From Anaeromassilibacillus sp. An200 (lineage in GTDB: Bacteria > Bacillota > Clostridia > Oscillospirales > Acutalibacteraceae), in the NCBI RefSeq assembly GCF_002160025.1, contig NZ_NFJU01000001.1, forward strand, positions 1 through 64,000: a stretch of DNA of 64,000 bases. The letters run 5' to 3'. A model generated the notes under the pieces. That model was not told where the DNA came from, did not search any database, and saw only the letters and a list, made by a program, of their open reading frames with translations. Positions 7,622 to 45,163 of the stretch are shown here, in pieces (the stretch's first letter is position 1; every line of letters begins with the position of its first letter). Both the position numbers and the translations under genes were made by a program.

Positions 7622-8257
7622 ATGAGACTTATGAGGACAAACATTTTTCCGAAACGCTCCTGCGTACCTAATCGCAGAGGTTCTTCCGGTGGAATTTTGA
7701 CTCGTTCGCATCTCGCGCTATATTTACTGGCTGTGTGCTTATTGGCCGGAACTGTGTGCGGTACTACAGCATCTGTATACTCAGGTGCTCAAATTTTGCA
7801 GCGATTTGATTTATTTTTTCAAACAAGCGCTTCCATGCGGCTTACTGAACCTGTTTACATGGTCTTTTCCGCATCGTTTGCCTCATCCTTTCTCTTTCTT
7901 CTGATTTGTTTTTTGTGCGGCCTTTCTATTTGGGGATTTTTGTTTGTTCCTATCGTTCTATTTTTTCGCGGCTATGGTGTGGGGCTCACGGCGGGATTTT
8001 TATGTTTTTCCTACCAGTGGAAAGGTGCACTGTTTCATTTGTTGGTATTACTGCCAGGCATTTTCTTCATTTGCTTGGCTCTTTTATTTGCCGGTCGAGA
8101 AGCATTTCGCGCATCCAAAGGGTTAGCTCGCACAGGACATATGGAGTTCAGGAATTATCTGATGCGTTTTGGTTTTTCGCTTTCCCTGGCATTTGGCGCA
8201 GCCATTCTCGACGTTGTTACCTCTGTTTGTTTTGCGGGACTTTTTTCATTTCCATGA
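7622..8257 (+). CDS. spoIIM: stage II sporulation protein M-like membrane protein
   Basis: SpoIIM is part of the SpoIIDMP complex that drives forespore engulfment by remodelling peptidoglycan; it is a polytopic membrane protein. The 211-residue product has a basic N terminus and five or six hydrophobic segments, including LALYLLAVCLLAGTVCG (about residues 31-47), a long central pair (about 85-125), and a C-terminal helix pair. Gene context supports the call: spoIIM is often close to xerD in Firmicutes, and xerD follows after about 50 bases. The ATG has AGGAGG (7608-7613) eight bases upstream. Sequence conservation in this family is low, so the call rests on topology, length and context. Confidence 0.75.
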   Translation: MRLMRTNIFPKRSCVPNRRGSSGGILTRSHLALYLLAVCLLAGTVCGTTASVYSGAQILQRFDLFFQTSASMRLTEPVYMVFSASFASSFLFLLICFLCGLSIWGFLFVPIVLFFRGYGVGLTAGFLCFSYQWKGALFHLLVLLPGIFFICLALLFAGREAFRASKGLARTGHMEFRNYLMRFGFSLSLAFGAAILDVVTSVCFAGLFSFP

Positions 8258-38040: not shown

Positions 38041-38634
38041 TCAGAAAAAACGTCCCTGTTTCAGCAACAGCCCTGCCAAATAGAAGGTAACAAGCAGCAG
38101 AGAGATATTGTAGCGGGAGCGAAACAGGATCAAAAACGAACATGCCGCCAAAGGAATCAAGATAAAAAAAGAAACCCATTGCACAAAGCGTCCCGCACGC
38201 TCCACACCAAAGCGAGAACTAAGAAGAGAAAACAACAGCTGACCTCCGTCAAAAGATTCTACTGGAAGCAGATTCATCAACGCTAACAAAAGATTTCCCT
38301 GAAAAAAGAGAGTATGTCCTGCACCGCCCATCCAACACAGTACGCAAAGAAACAGGTTAGTCAGAGGTCCAGATACAGAAACCAGCGCATCCTGCATATA
38401 ACCGACCTGTCTGTTCTCCTTTCGAACCATTGCAACACCAAATGGAGTAAAACGGAATTCCTTCACAGGAATCCCCAGGAAATGCATGGATACGAGATGC
38501 CCCATCTCATGACAGAATGCAGCCGCAAGTCCAGCAAAAGCAGCCCCTTTTTCATCGCAAAACAGTAAAAACGCCAGCAATGCGGTAAATAGAAAATCTA
38601 CTGTAACATGGCGTCCAAAAAGAGAAAATCTCAT
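38041..38634 (-). CDS. site-2-protease family membrane metalloprotease (M50, SpoIVFB-like)
   Basis: The 197-residue protein has several membrane segments, the HEMGH zinc motif (about residues 42-46, in FCHEMGHLV) and the second-metal motif NLLPVESFDGGQLL (Asp about 128). This is the compact S2P fold of SpoIVFB, which cleaves pro-sigma-K. It could be SpoIVFB or a housekeeping S2P. Its ATG overlaps the stop of the gene upstream (ATGA). Confidence 0.82.
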   Translation of the reverse strand: MRFSLFGRHVTVDFLFTALLAFLLFCDEKGAAFAGLAAAFCHEMGHLVSMHFLGIPVKEFRFTPFGVAMVRKENRQVGYMQDALVSVSGPLTNLFLCVLCWMGGAGHTLFFQGNLLLALMNLLPVESFDGGQLLFSLLSSRFGVERAGRFVQWVSFFILIPLAACSFLILFRSRYNISLLLVTFYLAGLLLKQGRFF

Positions 38635-38984
38635 TCTGCTTGAGAGGATGAGGCAGGTGCATCAGAAGAAACGTTTCCGACGCTTTCTTGTTTTTCGGGA
38701 AGTAAATCCAAAAAACGTGTTTCCACCTCTTCCCAATCCTCCTGTGCCACAATGCTGCTGTTCAGATGCTCCCAATACCAGCTTTTGACCGTATCCAGCA
38801 CTTGCCCTCCCACCAAACGCAAAATCAATACAGCCGCCAAAACAATCCCGCAGGCGGTAAGCTGCACCAGCAAAAGAAGCGAACCTGTTTGATGAGGTGG
38901 GCGCTTTTTCTTTGGAATCCGCCGCATTTCGTGATATTTTTCATCCCACTCCATTTCCTGTTCGTGCTGCATCTCTTGAACCAT
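38631..38984 (-). CDS. single-pass membrane protein preceding the M50 protease
   Basis: The 117-residue protein has a charged cytoplasmic N terminus (QEMEWDEKYHEMRRIPKKKR), one membrane helix (about residues 34-58), and a short extracytoplasmic domain with a Ser/Ala/Glu-rich end. SpoIVFA, the usual partner of SpoIVFB, has the same position and topology but carries a LytM domain that is missing here. The ATG at 38984 is preceded by GGAGGGAA. Confidence 0.6.
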   Translation of the reverse strand: MVQEMQHEQEMEWDEKYHEMRRIPKKKRPPHQTGSLLLLVQLTACGIVLAAVLILRLVGGQVLDTVKSWYWEHLNSSIVAQEDWEEVETRFLDLLPEKQESVGNVSSDAPASSSQAE

Positions 38985-39077
38985 GTGATTCCCTCCATCC
39001 TGTATTTTCAAAGCATTGTTTTTTCATGCCCTGTCATATGGATATGCGGAAAAACGGAAAAAAGTCTTGTTGAAACG

Positions 39078-41590: not shown

Positions 41591-41620
41591 TTGTCACCAA
41601 ACCCGCTCCTGCCGTATAGT
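41591..41620 (+). promoter_or_regulatory. candidate promoter of the small-gene pair
   Basis: TTGTCA (41591-41596), spacer 18, TATAGT (41615-41620), 33 bases upstream of the ATG at 41653. A sporulation sigma-factor promoter could not be recognised. Confidence 0.4.
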
Positions 41621-41652
41621 ATGAAAGCAGAAAAAAGAGAGGCGGTGAAAGG

Positions 41653-41799
41653 ATGAGAGGGAGACGGTGCTGCAAGGCTCCGTGTGTCATTGCGTTTGGG
41701 ATTGGGCTGATGATTTCTTGCTTCTGTCCCAGCGGCCTTCTGTTTTTCCTGATCTCGGCTATCCTGATCTGGTTAGGATTCTGCCTAATCCGCCGTTAG
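41653..41799 (+). CDS. 48-residue hydrophobic, cysteine-containing membrane protein
   Basis: This small gene has an ATG at 41653 with AGAGG ten bases upstream and ends at TAG 41799. The product starts MRGRRCCKAPCV, has a membrane helix pair separated by CFCPSG (about residues 24-29) and ends LIRR. Small proteins of this kind with a CP or CPxG turn are common in clostridia, but I know no function for them. It lies 56 bases before spoVM on the same strand, with no terminator between, so the two tiny genes probably share a transcript. Confidence 0.55.
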   Translation: MRGRRCCKAPCVIAFGIGLMISCFCPSGLLFFLISAILIWLGFCLIRR

Positions 41800-41855
41800 G
41801 GCGTGTTTAAAACAGACCCTAAACTCTCGAGTTATGCGAAAGGCAGGTACTTATT

Positions 41856-41939
41856 ATGAAGGTTGTCGTCGTTAGAAGCTCAAAATTCATTGGTTTCTTC
41901 CTTCGCAAAATGTTTCATATCCGCAGAAATGAGTTTTGA
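41856..41939 (+). CDS. spoVM: stage V sporulation protein M (SpoVM)
   Basis: SpoVM is a short amphipathic peptide that recognises the convex outer forespore membrane and recruits SpoIVA. This 27-codon gene gives MKVVVVRSSKFIG followed by FFLRKMFHIRRNEF. It aligns without gaps with the Bacillus peptide (MK-5 residues-KFLGG-10 residues): K10 F11 and G13 fall at the same positions, and both are basic, amphipathic and 26-27 long. Pro9, important in Bacillus, is Ser9 here. The ribosome site is AAAGGCAGG about eight bases upstream. Position before sipL and spoIVA, and near thiN as in Bacillus, supports the call. It was found by reading the sequence, not from any gene list. Confidence 0.82.
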   Translation: MKVVVVRSSKFIGFFLRKMFHIRRNEF

Positions 41940-41944
41940 GCAAG

Positions 41945-41983
41945 CGCCCCGCCGTTCAAATTTCAGGAACGGCGGGGCGTTTT
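41945..41983 (+). terminator. terminator after spoVM
   Basis: A perfect 13-bp GC-rich stem (CGCCCCGCCGTTC with its complement at 41967-41979), a 9-nt loop and TTTT follow spoVM by five bases. It separates spoVM from sipL, so sipL-spoIVA need their own promoter, which I cannot place. Confidence 0.9.
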
Positions 41984-42046
41984 CTGCATATCTGCAGGAT
42001 CCGGCGAATAAATTGGGGTAGAAACAGAAAAGGGAGGATGCCTTTT

Positions 42047-43585
42047 ATGGACTATACGGCGCAAAGAAACCCACTGAGCATCATTGAACTGCTCTATGAC
42101 GGATGCCAGGAGCAATCAGTCGACCTGGATATCTCACTGCCCGATTACTGCCCGGATATCCAGAAAATCTTGAAGTGTCAGGTCTATCCCCGGATTCTTG
42201 ATCGCACTCTTGCGGGCGATCATATCGAAGTCAGCGGAACCTATACCGTCAAAATATTATATCTGGATGCTGTAAATGGAACAATCCGCTGCTGTGAAAG
42301 CGGTTCACCATTTTCCTGTGTTATCCCCATGAAAAAAAATATTGAGCGCGGCAAAATCAAAGCCTTTGCCCGCGTAGAATACATCAACTGCCGTGCGGCC
42401 AGCTCCCGCAGGCTGGATGTGCACGGCTCCTTTTCCATCTGTGTCAAGGTATATGGAAGCGCGGACTGTGAGGCCGTCTGCTCGATTGTGGGAGACGATA
42501 TTGAGCAGCGCACGCTGGAGATCCCCTTCAGCCGCATGTCTGCTTTCTGTGTGCAGAACTTTCATGTGGAGGAAGTCCTGGAACTGCCTGGAACAAAGCC
42601 GGAAGCCGAAACGCTTTTACACAGCAGTGCAGTCGTTAACATGCAGGACTATAAGGTCATTCAAAACAAACTTATGGTCAAAGGAGATGTCACACTCCAT
42701 CTTCTCTATGCCTCCCCCTCAGAGGAATATTCTCTGGAAACGATGGAGTACGCCATTCCCTTTACCCAAATGCTTGACTGTGATGGAATCTCGGAGGAGG
42801 ATCGGAGCGACGTTCGGCTGTCTGTGATCGGAACCGATGTACAAATTAAAAACGATTATTCCGGTGGGAAAGTATTTTTCGACGCTCAGATCCGCTTATG
42901 CGCTGACATCACTGCCTATCAGAACAAGCAGACCACCATTGTATCTGATGCCTATTCCCGCAGCTATGAAATGGCATTGGAATATCAGCAGAAAAACGCG
43001 GAAGAACTCACAGAAATTTTCGGAGACAGTATGATGAAAAAGGTTTCCTTCCCCATGGAACAGGAAGTCAGCAAAGTGATCGATGTGTGGAGCGAGCTGT
43101 GTTCCGTTTCTCCCTCCAAAGAAGAAAACGGTTTGATTTTGGAGGGAAAATTCAGCATCTGCATGTTGGCATTTTGCTCTGATGGAAAGCCCTTTTATTT
43201 TGAACGTCTCGCAGATTTTCAGTACAAACGTCCCTTCGCCGGAGACGGTGAACTCCGCTGTGATGTGGACGCTTCCATTGCAGGCCTAAGCTACCGTATC
43301 ACAGGGAACGAGCTGGAAATCAAAGCGGAGATCTCTGTGTCTGGTTCTGTATTTTCCCGCCGCTCCTGCCGGATGGTGGAAGCTGCACATGCCGATGAAA
43401 CAAAGCCCAGGGAACGTGATCGTTCCGCAGCACTGATTTTGTATTATGCGGAGGCTGGGGAAGCATTATGGGATATCGCCAGACTGTACTGCACCTCTAT
43501 GGAGGCCATCCAGCGGGAAAATGGGCTGGAATGTGAAAAGATGGATTCTAAGGGAATGCTTCTGATTCCCATGCAGGCAAATTGA
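42047..43585 (+). CDS. sipL: SipL-like spore coat protein (SPOCS/DUF3794 plus LysM)
   Basis: SipL binds SpoIVA and is needed for coat assembly in Clostridioides. The 512-residue protein starts MDYTAQRNPLSIIELLYDG, has an N-terminal SPOCS-like region, repeated DUF3794-type beta domains (about residues 30-440, with ISLPDYCPDIQKILKC near the start), and a C-terminal LysM (YYAEAGEALWDIARLY, about residues 462-477, then a LLIP ending). The ATG at 42047 has AGGGAGG nine bases upstream; one at 42038 abuts the site. It is 13 bases from spoIVA. Confidence 0.88.
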   Translation: MDYTAQRNPLSIIELLYDGCQEQSVDLDISLPDYCPDIQKILKCQVYPRILDRTLAGDHIEVSGTYTVKILYLDAVNGTIRCCESGSPFSCVIPMKKNIERGKIKAFARVEYINCRAASSRRLDVHGSFSICVKVYGSADCEAVCSIVGDDIEQRTLEIPFSRMSAFCVQNFHVEEVLELPGTKPEAETLLHSSAVVNMQDYKVIQNKLMVKGDVTLHLLYASPSEEYSLETMEYAIPFTQMLDCDGISEEDRSDVRLSVIGTDVQIKNDYSGGKVFFDAQIRLCADITAYQNKQTTIVSDAYSRSYEMALEYQQKNAEELTEIFGDSMMKKVSFPMEQEVSKVIDVWSELCSVSPSKEENGLILEGKFSICMLAFCSDGKPFYFERLADFQYKRPFAGDGELRCDVDASIAGLSYRITGNELEIKAEISVSGSVFSRRSCRMVEAAHADETKPRERDRSAALILYYAEAGEALWDIARLYCTSMEAIQRENGLECEKMDSKGMLLIPMQAN

Positions 43586-43598
43586 GGGGGGAAGGAAA

Positions 43599-45077
43599 AT
43601 GGAAGATCGCAGCATTTACCGTGATATTGCGGAACGTACCAACGGCGATATCTATATTGGCGTAGTAGGCCCTGTCAGAACCGGAAAATCCACGTTTATC
43701 AAAAAATTTATGGATACCATCGTCCTGCCAAACATGGAGGAGGAGCACCGGCGCGGGCGAGCGGTAGATGAGATGCCGCAATCTGCCGCAGGACGCACCA
43801 TCATGACAACAGAACCCAAATTTATTCCGGAACAGGCGGTAAACGTGCGGATCGATGACTGTGCGGCTTTTTCTGTTCGGCTGATCGACTGTGTGGGGTA
43901 CATTGTACCAAGCGCTCTTGGATACATTGAAAATGATCAACCCCGCATGGTGATGACTCCATGGTATGAGGAGCCGATCCCCTTTAATATGGCAGCTGAG
44001 ATCGGAACAAAAAAAGTCATTACCGAACACTCCACTATCGGCCTTGTCATCACAACGGACGGATCGATCAGCGATATTCCCCGTGAAGAATACGAGGAAG
44101 CCGAGGAACGTGTGATCAATGAGCTTAAGGAAATCAACAAGCCTTTTATCGTCATTTATAACTGTGTGGAACCAGACGCTGAGGCTTCTCAAAATGCTGC
44201 TGCCGCTCTTTCCGCGAAATACGGTGTGCCCGTGCTCCCCATTAACTGTCTGGAAGCCGAGGAAAGTCAAATTCGGCAGATACTGTCACAAATCCTATAT
44301 GAATTTCCTGTGCGGGAAATCAGCATCGAGATGCCCAAATGGATTTCCAGCCTGGAAACGGATCATTGGCTTCGTTCCTCCGTTTACAGCGCCATTCAGC
44401 AGGCCGCCGGAAAACTCCAGCGCATCCGGGAGCTGAGTGACGCCATCAATCAGATTGAAAGATGTGAGTATGTAACAGACGCTGCTATTGAAAAGATCGA
44501 GCTGGGCAGCGGACGCACAAAACTGAATGTTTCCCTTCAGCCCAATTTGTTCTACCGTGTCCTGGGAGAGCGCACCGGCTTAAGTATCAACGACGAGGGC
44601 GAGCTGTTAAGCTGCATGATGGGCTTTGCCCAGATGAAAAAGCAATACGATAAAATCAAAGACGCATACGAGGAGGTGCAGAACACAGGCTATGGCATTG
44701 TCATGCCGGGGCTGGAAGAGCTGAGCCTTGAAGAGCCGGAGATTATTCGACAGGGAGGCAAATATGGAATTCGCCTGAAAGCCTCCGCTCCCTCCGTTCA
44801 CATGATGAAGACACAAATCACAACAGAAGTTACTCCCATTGTGGGTTCGGAGCAGCAGTCGCAGGAACTTGTGGAGTACCTTCTGCGGGAATTCGAGGAA
44901 AATCCAGCCAAAATCTGGGAATCCAATATTTTCGGGAAAAGCCTGCATGAGCTGGTCAATGAAGGATTGCATAACAAACTGTATCGTATGCCCTCTGATG
45001 CCCGGGATAAACTTCGGGAAACCATCGAACGAATCATCAACGAGGGATGCAGCGGCCTAATCTGTATTATTTTATAA
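43599..45077 (+). CDS. spoIVA: stage IV sporulation protein A (SpoIVA)
   Basis: SpoIVA is an ATPase that polymerises on the forespore to make the basement layer of the coat. The 492-residue protein has Walker A GPVRTGKSTFIKKF (about residues 24-37), LIDCVGYIVPSALG (about 93-106), a long middle domain and the conserved C-terminal end CSGLICIIL. A GGGGGGAAGG site precedes the ATG. Its partner SipL lies immediately upstream and SpoVM two genes upstream. Confidence 0.97.
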   Translation: MEDRSIYRDIAERTNGDIYIGVVGPVRTGKSTFIKKFMDTIVLPNMEEEHRRGRAVDEMPQSAAGRTIMTTEPKFIPEQAVNVRIDDCAAFSVRLIDCVGYIVPSALGYIENDQPRMVMTPWYEEPIPFNMAAEIGTKKVITEHSTIGLVITTDGSISDIPREEYEEAEERVINELKEINKPFIVIYNCVEPDAEASQNAAAALSAKYGVPVLPINCLEAEESQIRQILSQILYEFPVREISIEMPKWISSLETDHWLRSSVYSAIQQAAGKLQRIRELSDAINQIERCEYVTDAAIEKIELGSGRTKLNVSLQPNLFYRVLGERTGLSINDEGELLSCMMGFAQMKKQYDKIKDAYEEVQNTGYGIVMPGLEELSLEEPEIIRQGGKYGIRLKASAPSVHMMKTQITTEVTPIVGSEQQSQELVEYLLREFEENPAKIWESNIFGKSLHELVNEGLHNKLYRMPSDARDKLRETIERIINEGCSGLICIIL

Positions 45078-45098
45078 AGCTTGTTTCTCCCTTTTCTG

Positions 45099-45149
45099 AT
45101 AAAAAGACGTCCGGAGCGGGATTGCGCCGCGCTCCGGACGTCTTTTTAT
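45099..45149. terminator. bidirectional terminator between spoIVA and thiN
   Basis: A perfect 20-bp stem (ATAAAAAGACGTCCGGAGCG and its complement at 45130-45149) with A and T tails, lying between convergent genes. Confidence 0.95.
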
Positions 45150-45163
45150 CTTTCTGTAAGAGG

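Follow-up and report, generated by a model that had tools for sequence, protein, structure and literature searches.

The window, the whole 64,000-nucleotide stretch of DNA analysed here, most probably (about 0.8) contains a coat-basement locus arranged in two transcription units, orf48-spoVM and sipL-spoIVA. An earlier note on this DNA had described a SpoVM ORF followed by sipL and spoIVA, with the genes for SpoVM, SipL and SpoIVA adjacent, and family models match all three. The single cluster that it proposed holds as a conserved cluster, but orf48 is a fourth member and the genes fall into two apparent transcription units. orf48 (41653-41799) lies inside the interval of that note, 41653-45077, though it is unnamed in its text.

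Gene content and transcription units

The locus opens with orf48 (41653-41799, plus strand), the upstream partner of spoVM, which encodes a 48-residue predicted membrane hairpin peptide. It is followed by spoVM (41856-41939, plus strand), with 27 codons. Directly 3' of spoVM, a strong intrinsic terminator with a G+C-rich stem and a T-rich tail (41939-41989, plus strand; -34.6 kcal/mol, z -6.0) starts at the spoVM stop codon. A sigma-E-like promoter, GCATATC - 14 nt - AATAAATT, lies 5' of sipL (41986-42015, plus strand). This site is weak in the window, with 3% of shuffles scoring equally well; Acutalibacter relatives have a strong sigma-E-like site, GCATATT - 13 nt - CATACATA, for which zero shuffles were equal. 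A distinct promoter-like element precedes orf48 (41595-41624, plus strand; CACC - about 17 nt - TATAGTATG) and is conserved in an alignment of 23 relatives. Sigma-E fits this element poorly and sigma-K loosely, and neither was assigned to it. Because a terminator follows spoVM and each pair has its own promoter-like element, the best reading is probably a split into orf48-spoVM and sipL-spoIVA, not one operon. A single operon over 41.8-45.1 kb is disfavoured by the terminator after spoVM, with read-through possible.

The start of sipL (42047-43585, plus strand, 512 codons) is best placed at 42047, as read from the Shine-Dalgarno spacing. Its product has the SPOCS domains expected of SipL, with PF12673 (SPOCS/DUF3794) matching at 116.4 bits, and a weak C-terminal LysM at residues 470-496 (E 0.0044, 17.4 bits, under the cut-off of 20.9). 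The product of spoIVA (43599-45077, plus strand, 492 codons) matches equivalog TIGR02836 over its full length (737.9 bits, 1-492 of 492). No second SpoIVA was found in the genome, where spoIVA is single copy. The protein is 100% identical to the SpoIVA of Ca. Caccousia avicola, and the genome, that of a gut bacterium in the Caccousia/Acutalibacter group, belongs to Candidatus Caccousia. A perfect 21-bp inverted repeat between spoIVA and the opposing thiN (45098-45150, no strand) is likely a bidirectional terminator for the two genes. The window also carries an IS66-family transposase at its start (845-2431) and a SpoIIM-family gene at 7622-8257.

SpoVM and position 9

The product of the ORF at 41856-41939, MKVVVVRSSKFIGFFLRKMFHIRRNEF, scores 32.1 bits (E 8.5e-8) against NCBIfam NF033436 SpoVM_broad, above the curated cut-off of 31. 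When the whole genome was searched in six frames with this model, the ORF scored 29.7 bits, under that cut-off, and no second credible SpoVM was found (3.9e-6 here versus 0.24 for the next match). Pfam gave no match for the product. At 27 residues it is close to the SpoVM length of about 26, and it has K2, R17 and a cationic tail; M1, K2 and R17 are invariant across our SpoVM alignment (A1). The earlier note had pointed to position-specific SpoVM residues, and these are present at K2, K10-F11, G13 and R17 but not at position 9, where Ser stands in place of Pro. Among the expected neighbours, thiN and rpmB, the region contains thiN, together with rsgA, and rpmB is non-adjacent.

SpoVM orthologues were found in 131 of 150 same-family genomes, or 134 of 150 at a looser listing. 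Between the window and its relative L047, the spoVM codons differ by 9 synonymous and 5 non-synonymous changes (dN 0.14, dS 1.05), and the frame evolves under purifying selection. The earlier note had held that dissimilarity of the product in relatives, or a neutral frame, would count against SpoVM; neither was found. By family model and synteny, we file the 27-codon ORF as a SpoVM orthologue. That it arose by chance or encodes a different cationic peptide is highly improbable. The model score exceeds the cut-off by just 1.1 bits and the product has no Pro9, as such a peptide might, but orthologues occur in 134 of 150 family genomes and stand beside orf48, the frame is under purifying selection, the neighbourhood is common to spoVM of other Clostridia and the genome holds no better SpoVM.

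The window SpoVM has no proline anywhere. Pro9 was reported as the sole fully conserved SpoVM residue (PMC5607322), and the B. subtilis P9A variant loses both localisation and curvature discrimination (review, PMC12004969). SpoVM variants with proline restored at positions 7-13 served to demonstrate the importance of the flexible N-terminus (same review, PMC12004969). Position 9 is Pro in 44 of 60 family SpoVM orthologues and S, K, T or H in the other 16, of which 15 are without proline at positions 7-11. Since 16 of the 60 do without it, Pro9 was not treated as SpoVM-defining. A tie between Pro9 loss and gene linkage was unconvincing: Pro 7-11 is absent in 9 of 26 linked versus 6 of 34 other genomes, counts that ignore the relatedness of the genomes. 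The SpoVM of the Acutalibacter group (L062, L063, L065, L072, L073, L075, L076, L082) carries one inserted residue, with KRKG, KKKG or KRSG replacing the Pro9 region. SpoVM is the standard case of a tiny curvature-reading protein, and the proline is central to that model; natural Pro9-less SpoVMs offer a direct test of it.

A conserved gene upstream of spoVM

Nearly all relatives have an ORF of 45-60 codons directly 5' of spoVM, with the pattern FG(L)GL..SCFCP.GL..F..AVILV.LG..LLR. A profile search of the family genomes found orf48 at E below 0.001 in 116. Both orf48 and spoVM are present in 112 family genomes; in 111, orf48 is directly upstream on the same strand (median gap from its end to spoVM, 26 nt), and the gap in the remaining genome is 301 nt. 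Profile-profile comparison matched the Oscillospirales orf48 set to the ORFs upstream of spoVM across Clostridia (probability 96, E 2e-9).

The combined profile was searched against 393 genomes of the class and gave 99 matches at E below 1e-5. Forty-six are directly 5' of a detected spoVM (about 14 of these genomes fed into the profile and 32 did not), and in class genomes with a detected spoVM, none of the matches lay away from it. The remaining 53 are in genomes where SpoVM profiles gave nothing. A SpoVM-like short ORF, judged by eye, lies just 3' of orf48 in 44 of these 53 (L145, L161 and L164 included), so that 90 of the 99 strong matches are directly 5' of a spoVM (46 detected and 44 by eye). 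The position of orf48 also points to divergent spoVM genes missed by profile searches, 44 of which were recovered; in several clostridia, spoVM had escaped detection in earlier work (PMC3533761). Nine class genomes have orf48 without a recognisable spoVM, mostly beside rpmB. In one family of the class (L158, L159, L169, L175, L180, L190), orf48 adjoins rpmB with no recognisable spoVM downstream, and spoIVA is present in most of these genomes.

No family in Pfam or NCBIfam covers orf48. Matches to DUF6249, PetN, YtaF and CyanoTRADDas were weak and inconsistent between members, and these families were rejected. The modelled structure has helices at residues 8-22 and 28-47 around an invariant Pro26 (mean pLDDT 74, pTM 0.39), and the product is predicted to be a two-helix membrane hairpin peptide. 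The codons of orf48 are under purifying selection, with 13 synonymous and 0 non-synonymous differences between L062 and L063, and 17 and 4 between L075 and L076. Our literature search for an upstream partner of spoVM found only one report (PMC5607322), in which the C. difficile gene CD25622, encoding 50 aa, shares a sigma-E-dependent transcript with spoVM, which lies downstream of it, and is described as Peptostreptococcaceae-specific. Its position and size suggest that CD25622 is probably the C. difficile version of orf48. Lacking a curated family and kept directly 5' of spoVM in many Clostridia families, orf48 is a candidate missing component of the coat base.

Gene linkage, alternatives and known systems

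SpoIVA similarity was used to collect eighty named loci, which were annotated with tblastn and a SpoVM profile. The usual order, all on one strand, is rsmB-rlmN-prpC-prkC-rsgA-thiN-orf48-spoVM-sipL-spoIVA, shared by Caproiciproducens, Acutalibacter, Clostridium minihomine and others. Many relatives continue on this strand, past spoIVA, with nfnA-nfnB and with genes for an M50 protease and a radical-SAM protein. The four-gene block is flipped as one unit, still between thiN and nfnA, in the window, L005 and L047, an inversion in Caccousia and L047 relative to other relatives with the same neighbours. The inverted repeats found flanking the block, sought as a cause, were only short and unconvincing. 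At 38631-39011 (minus strand), beside 38041-38634, the window encodes a 126-residue protein with a single membrane segment and no family match. The gene for this protein precedes a SpoIVFB-like M50 protease gene in many relatives, and its position suggests a reduced SpoIVFA without the peptidase-like domain.

Linkage of spoVM, sipL and spoIVA, scored where spoVM precedes spoIVA on one strand by 1.3-2.3 kb, the gap being filled by sipL, was found in 27 of 150 same-family genomes, from 23 genera. Counted against the 131 family genomes with spoVM, 27 is a minimum, given the fragmentation of many assemblies: spoVM and spoIVA share a contig in 46 family genomes and are on separate contigs in 76 of the 131, where linkage is absent or beyond judging. 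Another family of the order has the same orf48-spoVM-sipL-spoIVA order (L203), and a third has spoVM-sipL-spoIVA without orf48 (L199). The three-gene cluster of the earlier note therefore recurs, and is no peculiarity of a single assembly. It is lineage-restricted, and it is not required, since most family genomes do not show it. Across the class, the usual layout is thiN, orf48, spoVM and then an opposing rpmB (of 29 3-kb loci, 12 have thiN and 20 have rpmB), so that sipL-spoIVA takes the place of rpmB in the lineage of the window.

In a coat-basement locus of this kind, the first unit, whose expression here we infer, would yield two very small mother-cell membrane peptides. The amphipathic helix of SpoVM would mark the outer forespore membrane, and the two-helix hairpin of orf48 would sit in the same membrane and may assist SpoVM in insertion, stability or turnover. 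The second unit would run from its own sigma-E-like promoter. SpoIVA, which is tethered by SpoVM in B. subtilis, would bind SpoVM and polymerise. SipL would bind SpoIVA via LysM, as its LysM domain does in C. difficile (PMC6436350), and both would encase the forespore.

The linkage could instead be historical, sipL-spoIVA having landed, in an ancestor, beside the old site of thiN-spoVM and stayed there by descent without functional coupling, a serious contender at slightly under even odds. This would agree with the stability of the sipL-spoIVA pair (74 of 79 loci have sipL directly 5' of spoIVA, with spoVM nearby or not), with the old thiN-spoVM neighbourhood seen across the class, with the terminator between the units and with the loss of linkage in many family genomes. 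It sits less well with the inversion of the whole block in Caccousia and with units that often stay adjacent after rearrangement: L201 has them convergent and L202 divergent, and L197 and L198, from a family outside the order, have spoIVA divergent from orf48-spoVM.

Co-inheritance makes it possible, in a tentative reading, that orf48 acts together with SpoVM. An independent job for orf48, in the membrane of the mother cell or the forespore, with co-expression as its only tie to spoVM, is also possible, though well short of an even chance. The nine class genomes that keep orf48 without spoVM would favour an independent job, as would the CD25622 insertion, which is polar on spoVM and showed nothing visible beyond the spoVM defect (PMC5607322); together, these two findings weaken an exclusive role of orf48 for SpoVM. 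C. difficile SpoVM is itself largely dispensable (PMC5607322). An independent job is harder to reconcile with the lack of any strong class-wide orf48 match away from a detected spoVM, and with the pair relocating together in L016-L018, L020, L201 and L202. The broadest proposal, which we consider rather unlikely, makes orf48 a general, overlooked coat-basement member in Clostridia, a working partner of SpoVM in the forespore membrane; in lineages like that of the window, the two would mark the convex membrane although SpoVM there has no Pro9 kink, the feature regarded as essential for curvature sensing.

Taken as a coat-basement locus in two units, the window resembles the B. subtilis spoVM region (prpC-prkC-rsgA-rpe-thiN / spoVM / rpmB) in having prpC-prkC-rsgA-thiN beside the spoVM cluster. 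The B. subtilis site differs in that rpmB is adjacent there and non-adjacent in the window, and it is not known to have orf48, sipL or spoIVA. The C. difficile locus differs from the window in its adjacent rpmB, in a SpoVM with Pro9 and in having sipL and spoIVA elsewhere. It is alike in having a gene of about 50 codons directly 5' of spoVM, cotranscribed and sigma-E controlled there. C. difficile spoVM adjoins rpmB and is cotranscribed with CD25622 (PMC5607322), in agreement with the earlier note, which had described the genes as non-neighbours in that species. CD25622 differs from orf48 in being described as restricted to Peptostreptococcaceae. The basement layer of the coat is made of SpoVM-SpoIVA-SpoVID in B. 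subtilis, and of SpoIVA-SipL, with SpoVM, in C. difficile. The window has the coat-basement protein set of C. difficile, and it differs from both species in its clustered genes, its Pro-less SpoVM and its extra conserved membrane peptide.
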